The notes beneath the pieces were generated by a model, which had not been told where the DNA came from, made no database searches, and was given only the letters and a program-made list of their open reading frames with translations. The position numbers and the translations under genes are program-made. A stretch of DNA of 64,000 nucleotides from Antedon mediterranea. Taxonomy: Eukaryota; Echinodermata; Crinoidea; Comatulida; Antedonidae. Within the stretch, counting starts at the first letter, position 1. Each line of letters opens with the position of its first letter. The DNA lies in the NCBI RefSeq assembly GCF_964355755.1, contig NC_092671.1:9001001-9065000 (forward strand). Direction: 5' to 3'. Of the stretch, positions 3,001-58,515 are shown in pieces.

Positions 3001-6000
3001 CATAATAGTACAGGCAAGTTCAAGTGGCAATTTATACATCAAATTATTAATATAATATTTCAAGAGTAGATGATGATTTTTCTGATGAAATAATGCTTTT
3101 ATATAGATCAAGTTGTTTAACATGAATATTCATGAGGACAGAGAGTAAATCAGTAAAGACAGCAAGTGTTGGACTCTGAATGTTAATGACACTAACAACA
3201 GTAAATTAAACTGAAATTAGATTTGATTTCAGGTGACAGCCATTGCATCAATATTAGCATGTCTTTCTCTTTACTTTCAGTTTCAGTATCTTAAATTATA
3301 TTTTGTTTTAATATTTTCATTTGATATTATATAGGACTGCCTATCAAACGCCATAATACATAGGCAAACATGTTGGAACTGATTTTAGTTTGATTTTCTT
3401 TCTGTATTATTATTTCTAATATATATAAATTACGGTATAAATAACTATAAAAAACAAAATATGTATTTTAATTTTTTTTTTTGTATTATTTATTTCAACT
3501 TTATTTATTTCAACTTTATAGAGGATAATCATTTCAGCTGGACAAAATAATGCCAGTTGATATTTAGGTGGGGGAGGGAGGAATTCTTTAGGGGCCCTTT
3601 ATTTTCCAATAAAATACACATTAAAAATAAAATGCTTACCAACCCCCAATTCAATAAATGTTAGGTTAAAAAGATTAATACCCAAACCACAACTTATGTT
3701 TTTTTTTGTGGAAAATCTGTTTTTCTAGGCAAGTCGACGTCGGGTTAATCAGGAGACAATGACTATGGTGAATTTTCTGCAGGCAAGCGGAACGCCAGCT
3801 CACCCGTTATTTCCAGGGAGCAATGTCCTTAAAGCCGAAGCAACGCCTGGAAGTAGCAAGATGGGAAAGGTCATAAATGTCAACACAGATCCATTACAAT
3901 GGTGCTTAGGGTGAGAAAGTATTCATTAATTTAATAAAAATTTGATTTAACAATGAACTTCGCCTGTATCATCCATTAAAGCTTGGTCGAATCTAACCTC
4001 TAGCCATCAGCACAAACTCGGTGTTCTGTAGACATGAATGGTAGGCTAGTGATCTAGAGGTTTTGGGTTCAAGAATTACTTGTGTGTTCTCAAAGTACAA
4101 AATTACATCAGAGTAAATATCTGACTAAATAACAATTAACAACTAATGTGTAACACATTTAATTTAACTTTACAATCAATTGTGTTAATAATTGATGTAT
4201 TTTACGTTAAAGGTCAAAACTTGAATAGCGAAAGCTGATTTATTTGGGTCTTTTTTGTAATTGTTGTTTTTATATTATGTTATTATGTTATGAGAGTGAC
4301 AAATAAAGTATTTACATACACAAATAAAGTATCTACACACATTGAATGTATGTTTCTCATTCATAGGTGGATTCAAGAGGGCTTCCCCTAAATTTTGCAG
4401 ATTGTAATGCAAAAGATAAATTTTTAGACCCTGGCCCCTACCCCCTTTTTAAAAAATCCTAGAACCGCCACTGTCAATGCTAGTTTTTATTTTTGCTTTA
4501 GCAATAATATAGTAGTTGATTGGTATGTTAGTGGGTGATAGAGTCAATTATAAGTTAATTACAGATACACATATAATAGCTTCTTGCAGTATTGCAGCTG
4601 TATCTCAATAGGTTGAACCCACTCAATCCAAAAAGGTCAAGATTCTTACACAATTGCTGTACTTTGTTTATTTAACAATTTTGTTATTTATTTAACTATT
4701 AAGTGAAAGTTGTTTAACTGCTCTGTGTATAGACTATTTTATAATAGATAGATTTAAATACTAATCCATGCTTTCTATAAGCCTCACCAAGTGTAAGCAA
4801 TATTGTGAAGGTTAACTATACTGTAATTCTAATAATGAAATCCAAGGGTCAAAATAAAATAAATTGAAATGGAAATGAAAGGATGAAATTTATAAAATAT
4901 AAAACTGTAATAAATAGTCATAACATTTCTTCGAATATACAGCAATCATAAATATTGTAAATATTGTTGACCTTTATTGTGCCCCTTATTTTTATAATAA
5001 TTCTGTAAAACTATTACCAAAATATAAGAGTGTACAAATTCCACTCCGAAAAAGCTCTTTTCTGCCTTATATAAGTAACTCTCATTAGCTCTTATAATGG
5101 AATATAGTTTTTGCAAGCTTGACATTTCTTTTTAACTTTATAGTTAAATGATTTAGCTATTTGCTCTCCATTGAGATCCAGCTACTAATGATACCCACAG
5201 CAATGTCATTTTTTTCAGTCCTTATTATTTCTGTATCTATCTCTTGAGATCCAGCTACTAATGATACCCACAGCAATGTCATTTTTTCAGTCCTTATTAT
5301 TTCTGTATCTATCTCTTGAGATCCAGCTACTAATGATACCCACAGCAATGTCATTTTTTTCAGTCCTTATTATTTCTGTATCTATCTCTTGAGATCCAGC
5401 TACTAATGATACCCACAGCAATGTCATTTTTTCAGTCCTTATTATTTCTGTATCTATCTCTTGAGATCCAGCTACTAATGATACCCACAGCAATGTCATT
5501 TTTTCAGTCCTTATTATTTCTGTATCTATCTCTTGAGATCCAGCTACTAATGATACCCACAGCAATGTCATTTTTTCAGTCCTTATTATTTCTGTATCTA
5601 TCTCTTGAGATCCAGCTACTAATGATACCCACAGCAATGTCATTTTTTTCAGTCCTTATTATTTCTGTATCTATCTCTTGAGATCCAGCTACTAATGATA
5701 CCCACAGCATTGCCATTTTTATATGATAATTTGCCTTTGGATATAAAAGAAATAAATAGAATATATCAAAAAAACAAAATTGATATGCGTTAATATTATT
5801 ATACGGCTTTACCACGTTGAAACACCGGTTCTCGTCAGATCACCGAAGTTAAGCGACGTTGGGCCTGGTTAGAGCTTGGACGGGAGACCATCTGGGAAAA
5901 ACGGGTGCTGTATACGGAGCTGGGGTCCCGTTAGGCATTTGAAATCAGCACTGCTGACTCTTATGGCAGCCCCTGCATCTAGTATCTGCCTCAAACCTCT

Positions 6001-9000
6001 GGTCAAGGTGGGCACTGGACGAGAGAAGCCCTTGATCAATGTTAGGACCAATCAAGGTCCTGGCTTTGTTTGTATCAAAAACCTGTTAGTGGCGGTAATT
6101 ATCGCTGTTGGTTTCGATTGAATAAAATAAAAAAATAAATAAAATAAAAATTAGCTAAAATTAGGTATGCTTTAAAAAAGCTTAGCAGCAGTTAAAATTA
6201 AAAAAAATGACATCTAAACAATAATTAATATAATATATTGTAGTGTATTAATTGTTAAATTATTAATTATGTTCAGTGTTAATAATAAATGTAAACATAT
6301 CTGTACCATCAAGAGAGGCAGGAGGTCTTTAACGCTGGACCAAATTGTTGTTTATTCTGGGAAGAGTAATTAAAAACGATATTTTTTAATAATGGTCCTA
6401 AATTTTGAAAATCTTCTTAGAATTTAACACTTTATATTTAGCTGCATATCTTCATCCAAAGATTTCTAGTTTTGAACTTGACCAAATATTTATGTCACCT
6501 AATCATTACCATATAAAGTTGAATGCTCTGTCTAGACTAATCAAACTTTATGAGACAAAACAATGTCCATATATGGAAATGATGATGTCATAGTACTACT
6601 ATACTTGGGCATATCACTGCCATATTTAGGCACATCATACTTTTTTGTCAATCTAGTTTGATAGTGTAAACAGAGCTTAATACATTTTACATACTCTTTT
6701 GGTTAAAATATTGTCAATTCATTATGTTATGTTATGTATTGTTTAGGTGTGGTCATATGCCAGTAATAAGTTCAATTGGTGAAACGTCCAGCTCGCAACT
6801 GGTCAGTGTTGATGTCCATCAAGCTACTGCTGAGTTGGCCAAGGCATTACAGCCGATGAAAGTTTTATTTCTAAATGATCACGGTGGCATTACAAATGAG
6901 AAAGGAGAGGTAGGTACAATCATCAACTACAAACTGAGATATGAAATGTGTTTGTTTGGTTTTTGAGTTGAATTACCGCAGAAGAAATAACCCATGCTTT
7001 CTAAACTAAGTATAAGGCTTTGGTAAATGTACTGAGGGTTACTTATCCAGTTAACCATGTACTCATAGACAAGGTGGTGGATCTAAGGCCCAACTAAATT
7101 TCAGGAAAAAAAAACAATAAAATATATACAGTTGAAGCTCAAATACCAAAACACTTCTAGACATTTCTAGGTCCAAAAGTTCCCATAATTCTTTTTACGC
7201 ATCCAGAAGGTATCTATATTGGGATATTGGACTGTATAACATTATGTTTTTTACTTACTACTGTTTAGAATTTGGAAAGTAAATTGCATGTTAAACATAG
7301 GATAGTGAGATTAAATTAAATACATAATTATATTGTTATATATATTTGATTCTCCCCAGGTGATTGGTGAGATCTTAATCCCTGGTGATCTTGAGAAAAT
7401 TTCAAATGAAATATGGTACACTGATGCAACTGAACGTAAAGTAGAATATATGAAAGATTTGTTGGAACACTTACCGAGCACCTCAAGCGTGGTCATCACC
7501 TCTGCCACCACACTTCTGACTGAGTTGTTTACTAGACATGGTAATTATTACTATTTTTAGATGTGAAAACGAATACATTTGTTTGTATTACAGACTATTG
7601 TCCTTAGACACCATGGGAAAGGTCCAAAATGTCTGTTTCTTAGAAATTCTACTTTTCAGGACCTCTGGGACTTTTAATCTTTTCACAGCTTTGAAACGAT
7701 GTAGAAAAGTTTGATTTTGAGAGTGTTTACTTGGTGATTTTTTAGGTAATTAATAAAAAGAAAAATTACTTGATTGTTAATTAATTATTGTCAAAATTGT
7801 TGTTTCCTCTAGGCTCTGGTACACTGTTTAAAAATATGGAGCCGATACATGAATTAACGAGCCTAAACGATGTTAACATTAATCGATTAATTGATTTAAT
7901 GTCAAGGTATTAATTTGTACTACTACTATGTGTTCCTATCCACACTGGTTCAGCCGTTCTCATTCATCTAGCTCAGTTTAGATTTTTGAACATGGAATCA
8001 GTTTTTTTATTATTTCATACGCATCCAACAGCGAGTAATTCGCCAATTACAGGATGGATAAAATATTTTATGATTTATCATGCTTATAAACTATGTCTCA
8101 TTTGAGGCTTAGGAGTGCAGTTGAAGGAGGTGTTAGTTACAACCTGGCACTAGGTCAGGATTGAACCCTGAACATTGGGACTGGAAGGCAATCATGTTAA
8201 CCACCAAGCTACAGCTCCACTTTTGTATTATAAATTCATTATTTAATACTTCATAGATAAATAAAATGTTGATCATAGTGAACAATCTTTTTATTTGGTG
8301 ATATTTGCATTGTTAGAGCTTTTGGGCGACCTTTGAAAGAAGAGTACTTCCGAGAGATATCGGACCGACTTGACACAATTTACATTTCGGAAAGTTACAG
8401 CGCAGCAGCTATAATAACAAACGAGGCCGGCACCAGTGTTCCATACTTGGATAAGTTTGTCATTAGTACACAATCACAGGTATGGCTATTTTGTATCATT
8501 CAGCAATTTCACACCCACCCTCTGAATTTAAATCATTGGCAATTTATGTACTGAAGTATGTGCTGAAACAAAAAAAACAACAATATTATTTCTGTAGGTT
8601 ATTGTATGAAATTTATTTTTAATATTCTAAAAAGCTGTTTTTTTTATTACTGTACTAGGGAGAGGGCACTAGTGATATGCTGTGGGATGTAATACGAGGC
8701 AAATTTAAGAACCTGTTTTGGCGGTCACAACATTCCAACAAGATCAATCCATGGTAAGAATAATTGCTAACAATTTTATTTGCAGTGGTCAAATATTCCA
8801 AAGCAAAATAAAGTCTTAAAAACTTTATTTTAACATCAACGATTTTTGTCTTAACTTAACTAAGCAAATATGAAACAATGTAGTTTGTTCAGTAAAATAA
8901 AAAGAACAGACCTTTTGATAAATAAGGCCTTCACTTAAGGACTTAAGGAGCCAATGTCCTTAAGCACTACAAGGCGTGTGTTAAAATAGCCACAAATATA

Positions 9001-9500: not shown

Positions 9501-9910
9501 TAATTAAATTGGCAATAATCTATGGTTTAATAACCAACACTAACCAGAATTTTTGTTTTTATTTATTTCTTCAATATCAAAATATTGCTGTTCAGTCTCC
9601 TTAAATTTTTATTTTTTATTTCTTGTATATAAATTTGGCTAAGAAATGTTCACCATCTATCGTTTTTGTCCTGATGATTGAGAAATTAAACGTAATGCAC
9701 CCCAAATTATTTCAGCGAGCTTTCCATTGATGTTGAAATGAGATAATCATAATATTCCATCTAGTAAGTTTGCTTGCTATCAACAAAGGAGCATAAGTTT
9801 AATTTTCAATATAGGAGGAAGAAAGTATAATTATCAACTTAAAACGAAGAAAGTTTAATTTGGAAGCAGATGAGAAGTACAGTAGGTGGTCAGTGACCAA
9901 TTTTAAGTTC

Positions 9911-10050
9911 AAAAGCTCTGTTTACACTATCAAACTTTATGTGATAAAAAAAAAATGTGATGTGCCCAATGGACAGGATGATGTCATATCACTACCATAT
10001 TAGGGCACATCACTACATAGTATGAGTTTGATAGTGTAGACAGAGCTTTA
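9911..10050. mobile_element. MITE family A, copy 2
   Basis: Left end AAAGCTCTGTTTACACTATC and right end GATAGTGTAGACAGAGCTTT are inverted repeats. The interior has TGTGATGTGCCC and GATGATGTCATATCACTACC, as in the other copies. Confidence 0.9.
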
Positions 10051-25190: not shown

Positions 25191-28100
25191 GTAAGATTCT
25201 AAAATACAGTTTTGAGCTTACTCTGTAAACACAGCGTGTGTAGTGTGGTGCTATGTTATTCCGTAGATATTTAGGTCAAGTGTAAAAGGTATTGTAGCAA
25301 TGATATATCTGTGTGGACTTGATTTCTGAATGATTGTAATAATTGAATTTTTCAAGCGAATGGAATGGCGATGGTGTATTGACTGTAAATATGTGACAGC
25401 AGTCAGCGTGTGCGTAGGCCTAGCTAGTTTTCCATTGAAACGTTGTTCTAGGCTAATATTAATAATAAAAAAAGAGTTCCAAAAGCATGTACATTTCTTG
25501 TAAATAGTTAATGATTTCTTTTGTTTCTTTTACAGCCTAGACTCTCACGTGGTTTCCCTCTCACGTTAGGCCAATCAATCCAATATTGAATGAATGAAGG
25601 AATTAATTTTGTAACATATTGTAGGCCCTAATATTTCGGTATGGAGCACCATAACAGAAATACTTACTACAAAAAACTACCTATGTAAGTAATGTTGACT
25701 AAAAAGTGATAGCGAGGCGAGTATAGCAGGCCGTCTAACCTGTCCTTTACTAGCTGGTAGTAGAACTCAATATATAGTCCAATATATACAATATTTTAAG
25801 ATTATTTACTGTGTTATCCAGTATTATATCTGTATTGCACTCATGAAGGGCTCATGTTGCCCGAAAGCTCTGCTAATTTATATGGTAGCCATGAATATAG
25901 TCTACAAATCAATTGCCTTTTTAAAAATGATAGCTGGAATATTTAGATTTGTTACAGTTTGTTCACATTTTGTAATATACAACAATCACAACATTCACTT
26001 TGTGTGCCAAACCAAACATTTATAAGAATAATATTTTATACAATATAATATTGGGATACATTTTAGTCCTACAGTACCTGTCAATTTTCATGGTTTTTCT
26101 GTAAGTTGTAAAGTAAAGTGTAGAAACTCTTTGTTTTATACCATTGTTTGGGTGATAAACAAATCCAACAAACAAGTAATATTAATAATAACCAATAAAC
26201 ATTTTTATTGACCTTACACACAGGTAGTTCTGTTGTTGTTTAGTGGCTTGTTTTAGCCCAGATGTGAAATTGAGGCTACAGCAATTAATTAATACAGTAA
26301 TAGGAGCACTGGCCTCTCCTAACCTACAACATAGGCCTAATGTTCATAGAGTTATAGGTCTACTGATTTATATAACTTAATAAAATGAAACCTTAAGACT
26401 GGGAAAGCAATATAACCACCCAGGACCAAAGAAAAATCCAGAACTAGGCTGGACTATACTTTTATCCCTACAAATTGTATTTATTTAAAATATTCATATC
26501 GGCACAGGCTAATAATCACATTTTACCTGATAATTTTAAATACCCCCATTTGTTATTTTAAATATTACATTGCATTTCATTTTCCATCTTATAAGACCCC
26601 TAAGCTTTGTGTACTACTGTACCTTCCTTCCGTTTAATTCTGTGTTGTCATGGTGAGGTACAACAATTAAAAATATACATTTCCTGATATCATTTTTGCT
26701 GCAAATTAATTATCAGTATTACTAAGTAGTATAAGACATACAAGTATATTTTAGATGAATTTAGTTTTTAAATGATTTCGATACATGTAATCTTATATAG
26801 TGTTTTATTTTTACCATACTGTACAGTATATTTTAAGCTCTGTCTACACTATGAAACTAGTTTGACAAAAACAAGTGTGATGTGCCCAAATTAAATATGG
26901 TAGTGATATGACATCATCGTGTCCTTATATGGGCACATAACATATTTTTGTTACATAAAGTTTGATAGTGTAGACAGAGCTTTAGATCTATTTTATATTT
27001 TTCAATTGAGTATTAATTTAATTAAGTTTTCTGGTCTAGAGCAATATACAGTGAATGTTTATACACATAAATACTATAGTATTAATATCATCAGCATTTT
27101 TGTATTTCACATCAAAACAATAAATCATATGTTTTCTACCTCAGGATCTTTGAAAATGACAATTTATTAATGTATACAGTTGTTATTTGACGGTACACTA
27201 CTACTACTTAAGAGAAAATTACAAAATAGCTTTTTAGTGTGTGTGATAAATCATTGTACAGAGCAAGCTTTGAAGGTTTAGGGTCAGACATACATACATG
27301 CGATTCAGAGTCATTATAATGTATATAAAGAAGAATTACTGTACATTTGATCATTATTGTCAGTTACCGAAACTAAATATTTTTATGTTACATATCAATT
27401 TAACTACATATTGTTGATACAATAGGACAAAAACATATTGCACAAATATTATATAAACACTGCATTATGATTCAAGGCATATTGTTTATCTTTAGGTTTA
27501 GCTTTCTCTCCACTAAGGTGCAGGATTGGAATTCTAAGGCATGGAAATATCATTTTATGAATACTCAATGTTTTAAAAATTAACAATTAATCACTTGGTT
27601 TATTATTTTGTAAATTGTTGTACAGTAGTACTGTTTGTTCTTTCTTAAATTGTATTTTGGTGAAACAGTATTTATTTTAATATTGAAATCATTGTTGTAA
27701 TGCAATTACAGTACATAGCCTTCATTTTGGACAGTATTATTACAACTGAATAAAAAAAAATTTACTGTACAACCATCTTTTTTTTTTCAAAAACTAAATT
27801 AAGCATCAAATTTAATATATTAAAAAATAATGGTTGTTCCTTTAACAACAACAACATATGCGCTACTTTTCTGTTAGTCTTTGTGGATAAAAAGAATGTG
27901 TCACATGATCAATCAGTGTGTACTAGTGAAGGGTAATTAGCATAGAGGATATTAAGTCCCCCTTGCTAATACAAATGGGCTGTTTTACTTAGTGCTATCC
28001 AAATATCTAGCTGTCACACTTTTCCTGTTTTCTAATTTTTTTAATTTTTTTTATTCAATTCATGCTAAATTCAAGAATTATCAGAGGAGAAAATTAAAAT

Positions 28101-28914: not shown

Positions 28915-31900
28915 ATGGAGGCTACGTGCGAGAATATGGTGCTAAAACGTAAACACTCCCCCACCCCTGTAGGCAATTGGGACAACTTGGAACATAATGG
29001 AAGACCCAATTCCCCATCATCAAGTGCTGATGAAGCGTCTTGTAAGTACTGTAACACTATCAAATTAATTTTCAAGCATGTTAAGTTAGACCTGTTGCTT
29101 AAAGCACAAAGCTTAATTCACACTAGAATGCAGTGCAATGACATACACTTACAAGTTATTTGACTGTCGTATGCAATAGCTCATCATCTGAATGGATGTG
29201 AATTGTACTCTACTAATAATATTGTTGTCTTTTATAGGCGAGTCTGCACAACCAAAGAGAAAGAGAAAAAAGCAAGTAAAGTTTAATGGTGTTACTGTTT
29301 ACTATTTTCAAAGATCTCAGGGTTTCACTTGTGTTCCAAGCCAAGGAGGTTCTACTCTTGGTAAGGATTTGTTCTGATCATTTGACATTGTAGGCCCTGT
29401 TTTTATACATACTGTACTGTAATTAGAGTGAGTGGATTGTTGCTACTGACAATTGTAACATTCTTGTGTTATCTTGTGCCATGTTTTCTAATTTGTCTTC
29501 ATGTATATGATATAACACAGTATAACTTTGTATGGAATTGTCTAATTGCCTGACACCTTGAAAGTCAATCATCACAGACCTGTACTGTACATGAAACTAA
29601 AATAGGCACAGTGGCAGTGAAGTTGTGTAGGTTCTCTCTCATACATAGTCATACTGTATGTAATACCTTCAGCTAAAGGGTAGTGCTAGGTAGAAATAAA
29701 GAAAGTGATCACCTACTCACTGTAATCTACCTCTTGCTAACATAACTACTGTATGTCCATGTGTTTCATATCATGAAATGGGACCTGTCACATGCTATAA
29801 CAAAATTATTTTGAATTTCACAGGAATGGAACATATTCATGAATTTAAAGAGAATTACAGTTTGAATGCCTTTGCTCTGGAACAAGATCGACAACATCGG
29901 GAACTTTTAAAAGAACAACTCTTACAAAGAAAACAACGACAAATGCTTGACCAAACTGAATCGGAACTGTTGGATAAAAGCATACAAGAAATTGCCGACA
30001 ATGAACTAGCAACAATAAATGTAGAAGAATACTACTTTCTACAGCCTGTGAACACAAAAAGACGAAGAATTATGCTTCGATCAGCAGGCGTGACCAAAAT
30101 CGAAAGCTGGGAAAAATCTGAATTGAAGAAAATCCGATTGTCTCGTGAAAAGTGTGGCTGCGATTGCAAAGTAGTTTGTAATCCGTCAACGTGTGCTTGT
30201 AGTTTAGCTGGAATCAAATGCCAGGTTGACAGATTATCTTTTCCATGTGGATGTAGTAAGGAAAGCTGTGGAAATGTAACTGGAAGGGTTGAATTCAACC
30301 CCATTAAAGTAAGGACTCACTTTCTACACACTCTAATGCGTTTAGAGGTTGAAAATGGAAAAGTGTCCGAAGATATTACTGATAATGACACTGATTATAC
30401 TAAACTGGAAAATTCAGTTTATTTAGATGAAAGTACTGACCGAGTTCTTGATCACGGTCAATGTAAAGAATGTGATTCAATACCTTACTCAGACTATAGT
30501 GATCAGTATACATGTGATCAATACTTAAATGGACAGAAACCTGGTGAACAAGGTCAATTTATTCAACAACTAGACTCCAATAGTACTCCTATGAACTTTT
30601 CTTGTACAAATACAAATATTCCACTTGATCTTCAATCTCATAACAATTCAAACAACCAGTGTGATGGTAACTATGATGGCGAATCTAATCACAACACCTT
30701 GAACATGTCTATCAACAATTTGTGCAATGTTTCCCAGTCGGATATCGGCGATTATGCCAGTACCACATCGGATGAAAGCGTGACCTCTGAATCGGATTCA
30801 GAACCTCCGTATGTTCATCCGACAATCTCTGTGGAAAATACAGACTTTGGTTCTACTTCTTCAAACAACATAGAGAAAAGTATTTTTCAAACACCTGATT
30901 CTTCACCAGAACAGCAATACACTAAGTTGATGCCCCTTGACCTTTCACATGCACTAGGTGATTTTGACACTTGTGGTGCCTCCCCAACCTACACACAATT
31001 GAGCACAACCTCGCGGTCGTGTCCCGATGCATATTATTCCCAGGTTTCTCACGACTCATACACAAACTATTTAACAGACTGCCACCATTTCGCCAGCAAT
31101 GCATCCAAGGCTGAAAAAACACGCTTCCAAAAATTGAACACAATCACTTCTTCTTGTACACTTGGAAGTCATTCTGATTTTGGTTGTGGTGGTTACAACT
31201 TAAACGATTCCAGACCGTCTACAGAACATACAGCAGACTCTAATATGCAATCTATTGACCAATCTGACTTTGCATTATGTGAGGATGAATCCACCGTTGA
31301 CTACTTCAATGAGAATGCAAGTGGACAAGAATACAAAAAGGGTACGAGTGCAGGTGTACATTTAAAACATTTTGAAACCAATATTATAAGTAAGGTGTCT
31401 TCTACTGTCAAAGATGGATGTTTTAAGCAGGATGTCTGTTTGCCATCAAATGAACACTGTCAGAATTTAACAGGTGATTGCCAAGCAACTTCTCAGTTGC
31501 AGTTATCTGATAGAGAAGAAAATAGTAAGTTTATTGTAGATAAGCGTGACATATCACCTGCCAGTTCTTCTAACATACCATTTGTTGGGTCACTGCAGGA
31601 TCAAGTGTGTGTGGCAAAAGGGCAAATATCTGAATCATACGCGACATCTGCAGACAACCGGTTTATTGTTAAAAGGGTTGATGTGTCTTCATCATCTGGT
31701 GATTCTTCCAACCTACCATTTGTTGGGTCATTGCAAGAGCAAGTGTGTCTGGAAAATGGACAAATATCTGAATCGTACCTGATATCCGATTCACGTTTAA
31801 CACCTGAACCAGATGTAAGTGAATCTCTCTTATTTGATGTTCATTCATTTGAAGAATCTCGAAAAACAGAATATCAAGGTAGTGTGCTTGTAGAGCAATC

Positions 31901-32750
31901 AACATCACAAAACTGTTTATCAGAAAAGCAATTATCATCTGATAATGCATCAGAATATTGTCTTAGTAGCAGAGATAACAAAACTGAGGAGTTCTTGGAA
32001 TTAACTAAAGCACAAGGTGATATTAACAAGGTTGACATTCCATTGAAAGAACCAGTTGACAGAGAAGCCAATCTAGATTTACCTTTTGACTGCCAACTTC
32101 CTCAAGATAAACCAACAGCTGATGTCCGTTTGCAGCCCCTACCAGCAGCTGATAACAGTTTGCAGCCCACACCAGCAGCTGATAGCAGTTTGCAGCCCGC
32201 ACCAGCAGATGATAGTAGTTTGCAGCCCCTATCAGCAGCTGATAACAATTTGCAGCCCGTACCAGCAGACGAAAGCAGTTTGCAGCCTCTATCAGCACCT
32301 GATAAAAGTTTGCAGCCCACACCAGTAGCTGATAGCAGTTTGCAGCCTACGCCAGCAGCATGTAACAATGTGCCTGCACCAGCACCTGATATAAGTTTGA
32401 ATCCTATACCAGAAGCTGCCAATAATCTCTTGCAGCTCACATCATATGATAAAAGTCTACAACCAATACACGCTGAAGTCAAATTGCTGCAGCCCACATC
32501 AGAAGCAGCTAATAATTGCTTGCAGCCAACACCAGAAGTGGCTAATAATTGCTTACAGCCCATATCAGTAGCAGATAATTGCTTGCAGCCGACCTCAGTT
32601 TCAGCTGATAGATTTTTGCAGCCCACACCAGCAATGACTGATGATGATTTACAACTCACACCAGCAGTAACTAGCTGCTGTATATTCAGCAAAGACACAG
32701 TCCAAACTCTACCTGACAACAGCATTGGAACAACTCAAGAAACTGAATGA
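28915..32750 (+). CDS. CSRNP: cysteine/serine-rich nuclear protein (CSRNP/AXUD1 family)
   Basis: Coding exons are 28915-29041, 29238-29360 and 29824-32750, giving 1058 aa. A 5' leader is likely spliced from about 25190 to 28867. CSRNPs are nuclear DNA-binding transcription activators. Family landmarks in order: [20 protein letters not shown] and GGSTLGM near residues 60-85, [19 protein letters not shown] near 95, [19 protein letters not shown] near 155, then the Cys-rich block ([39 protein letters not shown], about 193-245) and [11 protein letters not shown]. Vertebrate paralogues are about 540-600 aa, so this protein is nearly twice as long. The extra length is Ser/Asp/Asn-rich, with a tandem duplication near 31530-31800 and about 15 degenerate LQP repeats before the C-terminus. 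One gene is present here, so it cannot be assigned to CSRNP1, 2 or 3. Confidence 0.93.
31529..31800 (+). repeat. tandem duplication in the CSRNP coding region
   Basis: Two adjacent units of about 43 codons share [30 protein letters not shown] and GQISESY. DNA identity is also high (ACCATTTGTTGGGTCA in both), so the duplication is fairly young. Confidence 0.9.
32125..32690 (+). repeat. degenerate 33-39-bp coding repeat (LQP repeat)
   Basis: Units of 11-13 codons with consensus LQP-x-PAAD-x-S run to the end of the CSRNP protein (about residues 850-1040). The first eight units are almost identical at DNA level (GCAGCTGATA, AGTTTGCAGCCC); later ones decay and gain a residue ([12 protein letters not shown]). 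The opposite strand is also open for 207 codons across this block, a side effect of repetition. Confidence 0.93.
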
Positions 32751-35742: not shown

Positions 35743-38700
35743 TTATTTCTTCTTCATAGCAAAACTGTTTCCATTAGCTGGATGGTTGATCACTAACAAG
35801 AATGCAGCATATCCAGATAGTGTCATCTTATTTTCTAAAACCAAACATACATGAAAATAGTATTAATTTGTATATAAATTATGATAGTTTTGTTTTTTGG
35901 TTTTATATATTTAGGAAAATTTCCAAGGATAACCATAAGCGAATCCATTCAGCATCTTTCTAAAGGTGGCAATCCCGTTCAAGCAAGATATACACAAGAT
36001 GCTCTACATAAACGTCTTATTACAAGTCTTTGAGGGTGGAGTTGTAAATTTTCATTAGAAAAAAATCTTGAAACTGACATGACTTGAACCCAGGACCCTT
36101 GGATTAGTAACCAGGCATCATAACCACCAAGCTTTACTTGTAAATACTAAAATTGACTTGGTAAGTTACTATATAGGACTATTAATTATCAGGTTTTCCA
36201 AATAGCTTCCATGGTTGTACTTACCAGACACGTTTGTTGATAATTCTATCCAATTCTGCAGCCAATTTCTAAAAACTTGGTCAGTTAAACCATCCATTGA
36301 ATAGAAGCCACGGTCAAAGCAAATCTGTGAAAATAATATATGAATATAATGTTTGGTTTGTGATCCAATTATTTTACATAATTTAGAAATTAAATGATTT
36401 ATTTAAAACAAACAATAAAATAAAAATCACTTGTAATAGACGCCATGATAAAAAAAATCTGTGAAAATAATATATGTTTAGTTCGTGATTCAATTATAAC
36501 GCACAATGTTGTCCATTAGTAATGATCATTTAAAAGTGCTGTACAAGGAAACCATTAGCAACGATATAAAGCTCTGTCTTCACTATCAAAGTTTATGTGA
36601 CAACAAAATATGATGTGCCCATATATGACAATGTCTTATCACTACCATATTTGGGCATATCACCACTATATTTGGGTACATCACACTTTTTTTGTCAAAC
36701 TAGTTTGATAGTGTAGACAGAGCTTAACAAAATTCTATATAATATAGATGTCTAAAGACTATTTTTATTTAGGAAGGTGTATTGCCAATCGCTCCATTTC
36801 CAAGATGCTCCACATAAGTGAGTAGAGAAGTTGAACTTGAGACTATGAGATTGAAAGGCAAGCACAAGTTGTATATCTAAGTTATTTCTTTGTACAGTAC
36901 CCTCTGGAGCTGCACAAGATCAAGTTTGTGAAGGTCGTTGTCCCTTTTGATTCCTTTATCTATCGTTTGAAGTTCGGTCAAGCTGAACACAAGTCTACGG
37001 CGTAAGAAGAATGATGGTTGGAGGTATGGATTTATGGATAACAGCTTACATATATCTACCTGTGTAAAGATAAAATTAAATTGTACTATAATTCCGGTTT
37101 CCTAACACTTTGTGACCTAAAGGCTTTTAAACTCTACAAAGGGTTGAAATACTATAAATATTCCTATGTACCCTTTCCCAATTGGTTTAAATTTAGAATT
37201 TATTTTACTTTGCACCTCCCCATACTCATAGCCCCATCATAATTGTTATATTTATGCAGGGAGTTGTTAATAACCCTAATAACAACTCCCTGATTTATGT
37301 ATGTGCAAAAATGATGTTTTGGTTAACCAAGCATTGACAGTTGTATAGTAGTAGTAGAATCTTCAAGACATTGGAGATATATAGAATATGTATGGATATT
37401 CATTGAATGCAATGGATGTGTATGTAAAAGCTGGTTGTGTAAAAACTTAGATGCTTTTCCATCATTGGAACAACCGTGCTAAATCAATTAAATGTAAAAC
37501 ATACTAATTGTTTCTTTTGTAAATTAGCAACGTCCAATGATTCTTCAAACAAATTTCTTGAGTTGATTAAATCGTGTGCGACAGTCGCTTTCCCCTGTTC
37601 AATCTGAAAAATGACAGAGTATCATATCATTTTGAATATAATCACACAAACTTGGTTATCAGACTAGAATTGCAGCTCACAAAGATTATTTTATTCCTAC
37701 AGGTACTCATGAAGAAGAATTAGTCTATCTGACTGTAAAATGACTTAGATTTAGTCTGACAGAAAGATTGACAGCAATGATGTACTGTAAAACTAATCCT
37801 TAAATGGTGATTATTGTGGATTATGATGGGTATGTATTTTATTATGAGCTGGACAGTTTAGTTAATAAATTTATTTATATTTATTAAATATCATCGAGGA
37901 AGGTTATTATTGGACATGGATGGTAGTCATCGTAGCGGGTAATTATGCTCGGGTAACCATCCTAGGTGATAATTGGTGCTATAGTGATTATTTCAGTCTG
38001 AAAAGTGACATAACCTACCCTTGTGATTATTATATCGAGCATTTCCTTCTCGGCCTTTGTCCTGCACTGTGAATTTTTTAGATGTTTTACAACTTGTGGG
38101 TATGATTTAACTCGACGTTTCTGATCATTTACCCTGTATTTGTTCTGTTGTTCAGCTGTAAAGAACTGCTGACTTAGCAGTAGGCGCGGTCTTAGTGCTC
38201 TGTTTATAGATAGAATATTTCATTAGCTAACTCTAAAATCTCAACCGTAAAATTGATTAGGATTTTTATTTTTTTTTTGCATTTTGAATTAAATGAAATT
38301 TAATTAGTGTATTGTTATGCTAAAATAAATAGGAATATTATATCTTCTACTACTTACACAATAACCAGAACAGCATAAAACACAACTGGAAAGAGGCAAA
38401 GTACCAGTGTTGGTGTCACCTTATAAAGATCTCTACGATACTACAAGAAAATATAATTCTTGAATTGAAAGAAAAATAAGTACTTATATGGATTGCCCCT
38501 TGACCAATGATGTTAACCTTTGACACACTCAAAATGAAGGTAGTAAAACTGAGGTCATTAAAGCACGGGCAGACATCCATTAGCAACAACTAATTCACCA
38601 GAAGACATTATTTTTCTGGCATCATTTGATGATGACTATTTGTGTTTTCCCCCTTACCTGTCTAATAAAAACAATATCTTTCCAAGGCAAATCCAGGTAA

Positions 38701-44100: not shown

Positions 44101-47100
44101 CCCTGGGATGGGGATTTTTTTTCTGACATTCCATATGGTATACTCTGTTAGAAAAACCAAAAAAAAAATTTCCTATACTTTTTTCCCGCAAATGTGTATA
44201 ATAATTGTTCTGCACCCAGGTAAACGGTAGCCTATTTCTAGCAATTGGGATCAAATACGTAGTGCTAACAGTTTAAAGCCCTGTCTACACTATAAAACTT
44301 TATGCGATGTGCCAATATATGGACATGATGATGTCATATAACTACCATATTTGAGCATATCACTACCATATTTGGGCAAATCCCATTTTTTTGTGTCTAA
44401 AACTAGTTTGAGAGTGCAGAAAGAGCTTTACATCTGGCTTTTTTGTGTTTAATAATAGATTATCCAGTGATATAAATATTGTGTTTTTTGATAGATGTGT
44501 TCAGCGAGGTCAATGTTCAGGATACAACACTTTGTGATTTTTAGTAGTGTGACATTTATTGCTAATTCCAAGGTTCCATTTTGTTTCTACCTGTTCTTGC
44601 TTAATCAGGTGAAATGTATTCATTTATGAAATTACAGTATGATCAATACAAGTGATACCATATATGGATTTCAATATCTGAACCAACAGAAACTATTGTA
44701 TCAATAGATCACAGAGAAAAATAAAATAAAAGGGCTCAATGAACCGAGGTATTTTTCAGTAAGGCTTAGCCTCTAAATGTTTATTTATTTTATTTATTTT
44801 ATTATTCTTTATTTCATATAAAACATCAAAACATTAGACACCACCATGCTACAAGTTACCACTAGTGGCCAAAGGCCAGATTGTGGGTAACTTTTACATG
44901 CATGTACCTAGACCAATAAAAATATACAAAATTGAAACATACAAAATAATAAATTATACAAAAATGAGTGAAGAGCAGGCGTTAAGCAGGCGGATAAAAT
45001 AAGGGATTGGACTGTTACTGAAACGGGCGGTTCTGGATGGTAATTGTGAAATGTTATTACTATTACGGAGCGTACCTCCCGTGACTTTCAAACCGTGTCA
45101 CCGGTAAAAGATCAGCAGAATGAACAGTCTCAGATATTCCCTTGGCAAATTTGAGACTGTGAGCTATTCTCCTATCAGTGAGGGATGAGATGTTACAGAC
45201 CTTTAGAGCTTTGTCATACAAACTAAAATCCCTTCCCAATATGGTACGGCATGCTCTGCGTTGGACAGATTCTATAGAGTTGCTAAGCGATTTGGTTAAG
45301 CCGGGGTGCCATACAACATCGGCATATTCAAGGAGGGGTCTAATATACCCACAGTAGACAGAGCATAGTTCATCAGGGTTGAAGCCAAATTTCTTTAGAC
45401 TCCTTAAAATAAAAAGCTTCCTATTAGCCTTGAGGACAATATCCCCAATATGCTTATCCCATTTTAAGTTATTTTGTAACGTGACTCCAAGTATTTTAGC
45501 ATGAGTGACAAATGCTAGTTCGTTACCCCCGATATAAATTTTTTTTTCAGGAATATTCCTTTTACTAAAACATATTTGTAGTGCCTGGCATTTAGCAGGG
45601 TTCAGGTCCATAACATTCCTTTTACACCAATCATGAAACTCATTAAGATCATGCTGCAAGTGACCTGGTTGTGTTATCTTACGATTTTCATAAACAGATA
45701 GGTCATCAACGTATTTTAAAGCATTCGTTTTAGCACCCTTAACAGCATCATTGATCATGATTTGAAATGCAATGGGACCAAGTTTAGTCCCCTGGGGGAC
45801 ACCAGCTTTTAACGTGATAGCACTTGATAGGGAGTTGTTATATTTTACACATTGTTCTCTGCAGCTGAGGAAGCTGCAAATCCAAGGGACGATAGACCCA
45901 CGGACTCCAATGTCGATGATTTTATTGATTAAGGTGTTGTGTTCAATTCGATCAAAGGCCTTAGTGAAGTCCGTAAGGACAACCGTCCCTATGTTATGAG
46001 CCTCTTCAGCTGCAGCACACATATCATGAACTAGACGTACTAAGTAGTGGCTAGTTGATGCCCCCTTGACATTGCCATACTGTCTTACATCTAATTTATT
46101 CTGGATATCAGATACCACCCACTCACAAACAAATTGCTCTGCCACTTTTGCAAAGGCAGGTGTTAACGAGATAGGTCTTAACTTATCAATTTTTGGTGGA
46201 TGTACCTTGGGGATAGGAACAGTCACAGCTGATTTCCATTGGGTGGGGAGACTTCCTTCCCTAAATGAGCAATTTAAAATATTAGTGAGGGGTTCACTTA
46301 AAGGGCAAACTCTTTAAGAATTAAGGGTGGTATTTTATCAGGTCCTACTGATTTATAAACCTCCCATTCCTCCCAAATGTAGCTTATTTCCCTTTCTGTC
46401 TTCTTCCTCATCTTCCGTCTGACAAATCGTTGCTTTCTGTTCCATTGTCTCCTATTTTTTTGGGCCAAATTTTCACCTACCATTCTTTTTTAATTAATAT
46501 ATAGCAAATTAATTTATTCAGTAATGTGATTTAATCATTTATTCAATCATTTGATGGATAAAATCAAATTTGAATATAGGCAGTTATTCACTTTTGCCAA
46601 AACAATTTAACAATTAATGACAAAATAAACAGAATTAAATATAACCAAAATCCCAGATTTCAGACCATGAGTTTCAGTTTTTTCCCATTTAAATTTGCAT
46701 TTTATCAGTAATAACTTTTAATTTTGATACATATTTTGGTAATAATAACTAATAAAACAACTGTTATTAAATGTCATTAAAATGGGCTAGTAAACAACAT
46801 TATTTTGTTTAAGGGGAAAATACCTGTAAAAAATGTGTGTTTGGGTGTACATATTTTTTACCTTTCTAATTAAAAAAAAATCCAACTTTCAAAAGAATCA
46901 TACTGTTAATGAACAGATGTGCCTTTTTCATTAGAGGTATCATTGAATTCTGTGTTAAATGGTCACCATCCACAAAAGACATTCACCTCATCAAGGCCCT
47001 TCTCTGTCCATTGATTTTCTGCACTGTGACTTTCACACATTACTAGATTTTTATATACAATTGATTGAAAGAAAGCTTTATGACAGGTTATTAACAACTT

Positions 47101-53678: not shown

Positions 53679-56600
53679 ATGACTGAATCTGAAGATAGGA
53701 TAACCGATGATATAGACAGAGCTGATCTATTTGATTCAATTATTTGCGCTGAGGAAAGGTAAAATGATTCATGATTTAGTGTAGGCTTGCTAGCTAGGGA
53801 TTAGGGCCAGGCCTATCCTAAAATTTAGGCTAAATTAAGAAGGCTGGAGATTCCTCCTCCATTGTAATCTTGCTTGGTCTGGTCACTTCGTACTTATATC
53901 AGTAAGCCCTCTAGCGGTTTACCGGATTTATATGTCATCTTTACCACTTCTCGTGAACACTTTTTTGCGCCGCAGCTCTAGCCAGCTATGTCCCAGGAGG
54001 ACATATTCATTAATAAGCTGTTTCATAGCGGTAGCTTTAGTATCTAAGGCTGACAGTTTTGTGAATTTGGAAACTCGACTATAATTTATAGGTAGCTGCT
54101 GGACCCAAAAAACGTCTGGGAGAAGAGAGTCTATATGAAAGCCTTTGCTGATAATACAGTATTATTGAGATGTAGACGGAAATCTGTAAAATCTTGTTCA
54201 ATAAATAATAACTTCGTTTTTGCTGTCAACCAGGCTGGTGTTATAATAAGTCACTGTCAAATAATCATTCGATAATGGTCAAAACTTTATTTTGGCTCTG
54301 TCAACATAAAGGGAGGTATTTACAATGACTTTCTTTTGACTGTCAATCTAGGCCAATGTTATAATAATACGCCGTCAGATATTAAATCATTGAAACAGTC
54401 CTGGTAAATTTTTTTTTGGTTATCAGATGCCGTGGGAGGTGGGGGGGGGGGGGGGGGTCTAATCAATTATCGTCAGAAGGTGAACAATCAGTCTAGGTAG
54501 CAGCAGCAGATTATTATTAACGCCTGCTCCATTAATTAATCCAGAAAAAGGTTTGTACATTATCTATTTGTTTATTAGCCTTCTCCTAATACAATTATAT
54601 TTTCTTTAAAAAAAGGTTTTATAAGTGGTTTCAACATTTATGATAGTAATGTCACAGTTCTGTGTCTGGACGCAAGTTCATAGACCTACTAGTTATATTA
54701 TTCATATTAACTGATACTTACTCTTCATTTACCGTAAAGTTCAGATTTAATGAAATATATAATATAAATTGGCTTCGTAACAATTAGTTAGTGTTAGTTT
54801 TTTGGTGATAGGTGAAAATGACATGTAACTTCGTAATCAATTTATTTTTTTTGTATAAAGGCCCAATTACACTATGACGATAACGACGGACGATAAATAT
54901 ATAGCATGCATTTTTTTTACATAAACCAAAAGAAATTAGAAAGGTTTTCGTTCTAGACCTATAGGATAATCATTTATGCTGTCTTTGATAAAAATAATGT
55001 TTTTCAAATTCCAATCAAATGACGTCATGATAAATAAAAACAATAAAGTCGCTGTATTGTCACGATATTAATGGTCTTACTAATCATGACGTCATTTGAT
55101 TGGACGTGTGAAAATATAATTTTCATCAAAGGAATTGTTTATATTTCTTTTGGTTTATGTATTAAAAATGCATATTTGTCTATATCGTCGATCGTTATCG
55201 TCCTAGTGTATGGGCCTTATGCTGTAAATGTTTAATTAATTGATCATTCCGATTTTATTAGTTGGACTCTTGCACAGTTGCTGTCTAATCGTTGTTGTGT
55301 AATATCATTTCGAACCATATTAAAATCATAAAGAGATTCATATTCCTTAACATGTGGCTGTGCATGGAAGTCCGGTCTACAAAAACTCGGGCCCGGGATC
55401 ATTGTTATTGGGCCTGAAAGTGTTGGTGAATTCATAGTTATACTTAATATTATATATATAATTATATTATTATACAATTGAAAGCAAAACCCGTTGAATC
55501 TCAAATCATTAGGACTAGAAATTTGGCTTATCAATCAAATAAATACTTTCGTTCAAAATGAAACTCCAACCTCTCTAATCAAAAGATTGAACTCGAAAAC
55601 GGACCGTTTTTTGAATTGGGTATGTTGAAACATTTCAATTTTCATTAAAAAAAGTACATTAATTATGGTATTGATCAGTGGCTATAGAGGCGTAAAAACC
55701 CTCGGTCAATATCATGTAAAATGCACTGTGGAAGGGTCATTATTAAGACTGCAAAATTGGGCTTATCAACAACAAAATATTTTATTATTAGACGCGATAA
55801 CATCAAGGATAATCAGTATAATTATTAATATAGCCACTGTTACTAGTTTTATTCTACATGCTAAAGTAAATAAAAATCCACTAGAAAACAAACCAGTCTG
55901 AATGCTATGCTTATTAGCCATGTTATGTTTGTTACTGTAGGCCTATGATTGTTTGCAATGTCCACATATTATTTTCGTGGGCATATCCATAGTGTATCAC
56001 TCACAAAAAAGACGTGTGAGGTTCTTTCTTTAGATTTTGAAGAATGATTTGTGTTACAGGTTGACATGAGTCAAATGCTCAAGATATCGGCTAACGCCAT
56101 GGGACCCTTGGCTTATCAATGAATAATACAGTACTACTGTACTTTCGTTCAATTGAAATCAGAATCTGACCGTTTCATTAAATTGGGTGTGATTTGGCCT
56201 AAACATATAATAATTTATTAAAAAGGTACAATAAAAACAAATGCATCAGAGGCGTAAAGAACCCACGGCCAATATCATGTAAAATGTATATGGTATAAGC
56301 ACTGTGGAAGGGGTCATTATTATTAAACTGGAAATTCGGCTTATCAACAAATAAATACTTTCGTTTAAAATGTAAAATAAGACTGCAAAATTGGGCTTAT
56401 CAACAAATAAATACTTTCGTTCAAAATGTAAAATAAGACTGCACAATTGGGCTTATCAATAAATAAAATACTTTTTTTTCAAAATGTAAAATTAAGACTG
56501 GAAAATTGGGCTTATAAACAAATAAATACTTTTTTTTTCAAAATGTAAGAAAACATTTTTTAAATATAATCCTTAAGCTCTGTCTATACTATCAAACTAA

Positions 56601-58515
56601 ATATGATGTGCCCATATTATATAGACATGACGATGTCATATCACTACGATATTCGGGCATATCACTACCATATTTGGGCACATCACACTTTTTTTGTTAA
56701 ACTAGTTGGGACAGTGTAGACACAGAACTATGTGATCGAAACATAAGTCGGAATTGGACTGACGCGATTGATTTAATTGGGTATTTTTAGTAATGTAATG
56801 ATTCATTAAAAACTATAATACAGATACGCGTTTGGTATTGATCAATGGTGCAAAAAACCCTGAGAAATAATGTTATAACGCGATTTGGTGATAGCTTAGC
56901 AATAATACAACCCATATACTATTATTATAAATACCTATATTACAAATCCATTCATATAACTTTTCATCGCGAACCGAAAATGTATAAATGTTATTCTACA
57001 GACAGTAATTATATATTCAAAAGCCATATTATTATTATTATCAATACCTAAATGCGATAGTAATAACCACATAAACATACATTATTCCCAATACAAGTTT
57101 GTGCGTTTAATTCTAGAAAGAAACGACTGTGCTGACAGGCCAATGACATAAATCACAAGTAAAGTCCCAATTGTTCACTTGCGTTTTGATTGGCCGACCT
57201 ATTATATTAGATTAATGAAGGCTGTTCTTACAACTGTCCAGTCAAAAAGTTACGCGGCGTTTTTTGTAAGAAATATTTCTTGTTAATAGTAAATCGACTC
57301 AGAACATTTTAAACATTAAAAATTATAACATTGTTGGTAAATTTGGTTTATTTTGTTATGAATAGTGACATTTTTTAATGAAATACATGTCACATAGAAA
57401 GAAATTTAAAAAAAACCAGTCAGTAGGCTATTTAGTATTAATATAATAAATAATTAATTATACTATTATTACTAATACTTAATAGGGAAGGGTTTCTTGA
57501 TTCTTTTGAAGATGTGAAAAAAATGGCTTCTTAGTTGGCAAGAAAGAAGGGAAAGACAGAGGATTAAAAAATGGTTTTCAAAAGGGAATAGGTTTTGGAA
57601 AACAGGTCGGAGAAGAGATTGGCTTCTATCATGGGTTTGTCTTGACGTGGAAGAACATATTGGAAAAGAAAGATGAAAGGAACACAAGGTTTAATCACTA
57701 TTTGTCTGAAATAAATTAATAAATAAAGTAAAACTCTTGTTACAAAGAAATAGTTCATGGATTTAAATACTGTATATATTTTTACCAGAATCACAAGGCC
57801 CAACATATGATATTGTCTGTCAGATATAATAAAGCAAATTTGTACAAGATTATTTATAGTATAAAAATGATTGGATTGGATATTTGGATTTCCTTCTAAA
57901 CTTTTTCTTGATAAGATGTAACTGTTATCACAGGAGCCAAATATAGTTTGATAAATGCAGTGCTGATTTTGCATACTAGTCTACATTTTAGTTTATTCTT
58001 TTATCACAATTTTTTATCTGATTTTTTAAAATTCTATTTTGTTGCCAGGAAAATGAAGGCATTTGCCTCCTTACTTGGTATGTTAGAAGATTTTGACCTT
58101 TCGAACCCTTCAGTTGATGATTACATGGTAAAACTGACACAAATCAGATCAAAGTTCAAACAGGTTAGTACATAATGTGTTCAGGTTAAAGGTTAATTCT
58201 CCTAGGTATGCCATCCACACATTGACATAGAATCCTCGATTTGAATTGTTTTGAAGCAATTGCTACCAACATTACATTAACAATAAGAATAATTGACTGG
58301 TCATTCACACACTTTCAGTGATCTGTTCCCACATGTAAACAGCGAAGAGATCGGCTGATGATTATCTGCTTAAAACAACCCAGTTGCAAATAATGAGAAC
58401 TGTCAGGCTACTATATCTCTTGTTTTTTCAGGTTTCCTCTCTTCTTGGAGTTCAGTTACAACATGATGATGAAGATACAGAAAGAAGCAACCCACAACCT
58501 TTATTTTCATTTTGA
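53679..58515 (+). CDS. LTO1: LTO1 (ORAOV1) with an apparent frameshift in exon 2
   Basis: Exons are 53679-53758, 57486-57688, 58049-58163 and 58432-58515. LTO1 works with YAE1 as an adaptor that delivers Fe-S clusters to ABCE1, needed for ribosome biogenesis and recycling. Matches to human LTO1: DLFDSIICAEER, EGFLDSFED, the glycine-spaced repeat (NGF, GKKEG, RGLKNGF, QKG, IGFGKQVGEEIGFYHGF), RKMKAFASLLGMLEDF and IRSKFKQVSSLLGVQ. The expected size is about 160 aa (human 137). Exon 2 is 203 nt, one short of keeping frame. EGFLDSFED is in one frame and NGFLVGKKEG onward in another; the break lies at a run of seven A at about 57517-57523. A possible internal acceptor (AG at 57510-57511) would restore frame but drop EGFLDSFED. 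The donor after exon 2 (GTTTAA) is weak. Confidence 0.85.
54441..54457 (+). repeat. run of 17 G
   Basis: An unbroken homopolymer of 17 G follows GTGGGAGGT in LTO1 intron 1. It is able to form a G-quadruplex and is prone to length change and sequencing error. Confidence 0.95.
54858..55217. mobile_element. foldback MITE with TA flanks
   Basis: Left AAGGCCCAATTACACTATGA and right TAGTGTATGGGCCTT pair, and the match continues through CGATAACGA and CATAAACCAAAAGAAAT/ATTTCTTTTGGTTTATG. TA on each side fits the target duplication. The ends are reminiscent of the MITE at 13859. Confidence 0.8.
55508..56870. repeat. three-copy direct repeat block in LTO1 intron 1
   Basis: A unit starting with GGCTTATCAA(T)...AAATACTTTCGTTCAA, then GACCGTTT...AATTGGGT, CATTAAAAA, TGGTATTGATCA and AGGCGTAAA...AATATCATGTAAAATG occurs at about 55515-55775 and 56110-56345, and in part at 56745-56870. 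In addition, a 50-60-bp subunit (AAATTGGGCTTATCAACAAA to AAAATGTAAAATAAGACTG) is repeated about four times at 56335-56545. Confidence 0.75.
56573..56728. mobile_element. MITE family A, copy 7
   Basis: Left AAGCTCTGTCTATACTATCA and right GGACAGTGTAGACACAGAAC are family ends, the right one decayed. The interior has ATGATGTGCCCATATTAT, CACTACCATATTTGGG and CACATCACAC. It lies within the three-copy repeat block. Confidence 0.88.

Follow-up and report, generated by a model that had tools for sequence, protein, structure and literature searches.

A 5S rRNA-headed SINE family in the genome of the crinoid Antedon mediterranea

Introduction

In a stretch of 64,000 nucleotides of the crinoid Antedon mediterranea (contig NC_092671.1, positions 9,001,001 to 9,065,000 of the forward strand; called the window below, in whose numbering positions are given), a sequence resembling 5S rRNA passes into an unrelated body and an A-rich tail. 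This locus raises the question of whether it is a short interspersed element (SINE) with a 5S-derived head or some other kind of 5S-bearing sequence. SINEs headed by 5S rRNA are much rarer than those headed by tRNA and are thought to have several origins, and the type 1 promoter of RNA polymerase III (Pol III) depends on upstream signals. Each independent and recently active 5S-headed family helps to test whether such a promoter can sustain a SINE and which LINEs adopt 5S-headed RNAs, and the family described here supplies hundreds of retroposition markers for its host.

Results

The sequence at 5802-6151 is, with high confidence, a copy of a SINE3-class (5S-headed) SINE, a non-autonomous retrotransposon, and its parts are as follows.

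5802..6151 (+): SINE copy (head, body, A-rich tail); 40 scored near-full-length relatives, boundaries from the family alignment
5802..5916 (+): 5S rRNA-derived head, 115 bp; Rfam RF00001, 82.2 bits at 5799-5916
5847..5861 (+): equivalent of box A in the type 1 promoter of 5S genes; +50 to +64 in human/Xenopus 5S numbering
5864..5869 (+): intermediate element (IE) equivalent, CCTGGT, unchanged; +67 to +72 in 5S numbering
5877..5894 (+): box C equivalent, with substitutions; +80 to +97 in 5S numbering
5917..6120 (+): body with the 3' end, about 200 bp, without relation to 5S; multi-copy when searched alone
6058..6059 (+): junction of a 12-bp deletion in the window copy relative to the family consensus; alignment
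6092..6105 (+): near-palindrome GCGGTAATTATCGC in the conserved 3' end; invariant in nearly all aligned copies
6121..6151 (+): AATAAA-rich tail, variable in length between copies; sequence reading and copy alignment

The whole 5S_rRNA model (1-120) was matched at 5799-5916 on the plus strand (E 5.9e-16; cmscan of Infernal), and nothing else in the 64-kb window scored above the Rfam gathering threshold, the body (5917..6120) being without any match above it. The common 5' end of the family, TACGGC, lies exactly at 5802 in the alignment, and the A-rich tail of the window copy ends near 6151. The family consensus is about 338 bp long and is followed by a tail, variable between copies, of A interrupted here and there by T; the alignment shows that the 12 bp missing from the window copy are GCTTTAAACAGT. 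The near-palindrome in the 3' end may form a hairpin that a reverse transcriptase recognises.

The order of box A, IE and box C, whose positions were set by hand, bears out the sequence-only reading that the first ~116 bp keep all three 5S promoter elements in order, irrespective of the substitutions in box C. In this box AT replaces GC in the family consensus, and the window copy has in addition a private T-to-C change at 5881. The consensus is free of TTTT and so has no internal Pol III stop, though by our own estimate a consensus of this T content would lack TTTT by chance with a probability of ~0.16, so that the finding is only compatible with reading by Pol III. Because the boxes are retained, TFIIIA-dependent transcription of the element is plausible.

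With regard to the source of the head, two kinds of 5S genes were found in the host genome: tandem genes on contig C6, at about 8.63-8.80 Mb (hundreds of pattern matches) and near 9.00 Mb, and a single dispersed gene at C3:4487846-4487964. The consensus head matches the C3 gene at 86% identity and the tandem genes at 83%, and within box A it has GAAGTTAAGC in common with the former, where the array genes have GCAGTTAAAC. Judged from these identities and the shared box A, the head probably derives from a 5S sequence of more usual form and not from the present array genes. Box A and the terminal helix set the array genes apart from the C3 gene, which is closer to the usual animal sequence. As a mere lead, the 5S genes of the host may be similar to lophotrochozoan ones. 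The assembly gave no match to COX1.

We searched the host genome (354,431,138 bases, 18 contigs) with the whole element, the body alone and the 3' end alone. The whole element gave at least 40 scored near-full-length matches across many contigs, 92-94% identical to the window copy, and the body-only and 3'-end-only queries were as repetitive as the whole element; these are lower bounds, since the similarity searches score the best 40 or so matches. Pattern counts are complete. With up to 3 mismatches, the 3' 25-mer GGTAATTATCGCTGTTGGTTTCGAT occurred 334 and 328 times on the two strands of the whole genome (662 in total) and the head 25-mer GGCTTTACCACGTTGAAACACCGGT 150 and 147 times (297), while the reversed control patterns for both occurred 0 times. 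Aligned copies have head, body and tail in common, and their flanks are unrelated. The family is of low copy number and consists of genuine SINEs of the SINE3 class.

The earlier reading had held that a unique body would make the locus a 5S pseudogene; searched alone across the genome, the body is multi-copy. A retroposed 5S rRNA pseudogene beside unique DNA would agree with the identity between the consensus head and a 5S gene now present in this genome (86%, above), but it leaves no place for a multi-copy body joined in the same order to the same head, and it is hardly conceivable as the explanation of this locus.

The best full-length copies are 99.7% identical to the SINE consensus, and older ones are about 77-90% identical, an age distribution that is biased because the first 20 copies were picked by similarity to the window copy. 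Since the best copies are so close to the consensus, the family appears to have been active recently. A second family sharing the same head was considered, as many exact heads had no exact 3' end nearby, and was rejected: 20 loci of this kind turned out to be copies that had diverged, lost internal sequence, been truncated or been interrupted, or else to belong to a single local segmental duplication.

A 3' tail and 5' truncation are marks of retroposition, and the family shows both. On contig C1, 22 of the 35 copies with the exact 3' 25-mer reach the 5' end, some of them with internal changes, and the other 13 are 5'-truncated at scattered points (truncated and full copies were counted by hand). 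The points of truncation range from about position 17 to about position 303 of the consensus. Because the DNA upstream of them is unrelated, these copies are SINEs cut short rather than the 3' portions of a single longer element. Tail-only loci were likewise considered as LINE 3' ends, and this was rejected: 20 such loci, together with earlier ones, were for the most part SINEs truncated at the 5' end, with unrelated DNA before them, or full-length SINEs that had diverged.

Three insertions (L058, L096 and L049) could be aligned to empty paralogous sites. The host repeat of L058 is a MITE-like repeat that is also present in the window, and L096 and L049 lie in two other repeats. In all these alignments there was no large deletion, and at most a few bases were duplicated. 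These alignments bear on whether duplication at the DNA level (segmental or satellite-like), and not retroposition, was the main way in which the copies spread. On C1, between 6.6 and 7.1 Mb, four fragments of the head (L089-L092) do lie inside one duplicated segment, about 91-99% identical between its copies, as such a spread would have it. However, this is one local case; the other copies are on many contigs with unrelated flanks, and the empty-site alignments come from three independent loci. We consider DNA-level duplication very improbable as the main route of spread of what we read as a retroposed SINE.

Among 42 full-length copies, no target-site duplication that included at least one G/C reached 8 bp, and the distribution of duplications was that of mismatched flank pairs, with no excess over chance. 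Target-site duplications are usual in SINEs and not obligatory, and CR1-type elements make short ones or none. This lack of a signal departs from the textbook SINE, yet it is known for some LINE clades, and HaSE3.1 was likewise reported to be without target-site duplications.

The same data concern the possibility of a TRIM-like LTR element with a 5S promoter, like Cassandra in plants or Ajax in nemerteans, or of its solo LTR, which deserves attention as LTR elements bearing 5S do exist (PMC10886601). But scattered 5' truncation with an intact 3' end and a variable A-rich tail are unlike LTRs, a 4-5 bp target-site duplication signal was not found, and the aligned copies showed no direct repeats in pairs, which leaves the LTR interpretation with a very slim chance. 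The SINE interpretation agrees with what was observed: a multi-copy chimera with a uniform head-body-tail order, dispersed, 5'-truncated in part, and inserted cleanly into other repeats. The earlier proposal of a SINE with a 5S head at 5802-6151 was right almost to the base, given the multi-copy body, the uniformity of the chimera between copies, the 5' truncation and the insertion into occupied repeats.

The 5' ends of some copies are unusual. At six loci (L054, L055, L071, L099, L106 and G000:C1:29133423-29133476), the element is directly preceded by one or several additional copies of its first 20-30 nt, with a few filler bases. The iterated part starts at the 5' end of the element and stops at differing points, and exact patterns found eight such junctions genome-wide and 0 in the control. 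This suggests template jumping at the 5' end, in which the reverse transcriptase would reach the 5' end of the RNA, jump back into the interior of that RNA or of another one and then finish. Alternatively, the iterations may have arisen by slippage after insertion.

Similarity to a LINE, which had been looked for in the 3' 60 bp following the sequence-only reading, was not found: none of 41 LINE 3' regions (40 reverse-transcriptase loci and the LINE of the window), which represent part of the LINE families of the genome, shares the 3' end of the element. Their matches to it were confined to the A-rich tail, and the best local scores equalled those of shuffled queries. Some of the sampled LINEs (L140 and L141) end in similar AAATAAAATAAA tails after a possible hairpin. 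Because of these similar tails, and because the family combines an AATAAA-type tail with no long target-site duplications, there is a weak lead towards a CR1-like partner, with LINE clades assigned by eye without a tree. CR1 LINEs are the reported partners of vertebrate SINE3 (PMC7245038). The LINE of the window lies at 45063-46313 (-), encodes a reverse transcriptase (Pfam RVT_1, E 2.8e-28) and has an AATAAA-rich 3' tail.

Discussion

As to how the family multiplied, we infer that Pol III would transcribe the element from its internal 5S-type promoter (box A, IE and box C), with TFIIIA acting in this transcription, and that a host LINE would supply the reverse transcriptase, which would act on the 3' end and copy the RNA into new sites by target-primed reverse transcription.

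The 5S-headed SINE family described here is new, and its kind is already known from vertebrates, insects and a fungus. SINE3 of zebrafish was reportedly described by Kapitonov and Jurka in 2003. The framing in the first reading of the sequence, in which 5S-headed SINEs are known from fish and a few other deuterostomes, is outdated, as SINE3 elements have been published from Tribolium, many moths and Aspergillus. The vertebrate elements (zebrafish SINE3 and AmnSINE1) resemble the present family in their short length, their unrelated body and a 5' head derived from 5S that contains box A, IE and box C; as for the 3' side, CR1 LINEs are reported for them, and the tail of our family is AATAAA-rich.

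Insect 5S-headed SINEs include SINE3-1_TC of the beetle Tribolium and, among moths, HaSE3 (Helicoverpa), PxSE4 and PxSE5 (Plutella), LaSE2 and CsSE2. The four tabulated moth families have lengths of 294-389 bp and copy numbers in the hundreds to thousands (PMC8010984). The insect elements have the 5S head in common with the present family and differ from it at the 3' end: the tails of PxSE4 and CsSE2 are (TGA)n and that of PxSE5 is (ATGT)n, in contrast to the AATAAA-rich tail here, and a matching LINE 3' end was reported for HaSE3 and PxSE5, whereas none was detected among our 41 LINE 3' regions. Nor were target-site duplications detected in the present family. The 5S-related SINEs of Aspergillus fumigatus (PMC5063351) are also similar, as 5S-related SINEs outside deuterostomes. 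The TRIMs Cassandra and Ajax share the feature of a 5S-derived promoter in a mobile element, but they are LTR retrotransposons with the 5S sequence inside the LTR, whereas the present element has no LTRs. For molluscs and annelids, a narrow word-based literature search yielded no publication describing a 5S-headed SINE.

We put forward tentatively, as a possible rather than a probable history, that this SINE3 family had an origin of its own in an invertebrate lineage distinct from those of the insect and vertebrate families, and that its reverse transcription produces hardly any target-site duplications and on occasion copies the first 20-30 nt of the RNA once more at the 5' end.

Other features of the window

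Immediately upstream of the SINE, at 5170-5720, there is a tandem repeat with a 72/73-bp unit in about 7 copies, and this unit resembles part of a dispersed repeat found at L042, L049 and L160. Copies of the MITE-like repeat, one copy of which elsewhere (L058) carries the SINE, are located at 9904-10014, 26838-26986, 36594-36722, 44274-44425 and 56572-56725, and its inverted ends are CTCTGTCTACACTATCAAACT and AGTTTGATAGTGTAGACAGAG. Finally, an open frame of 1013 aa at 29709-32747 (+) contains a CSRNP N-terminal domain (E 2.2e-67) and has a C-terminal run of degenerate repeats resembling a 10-residue sequence.
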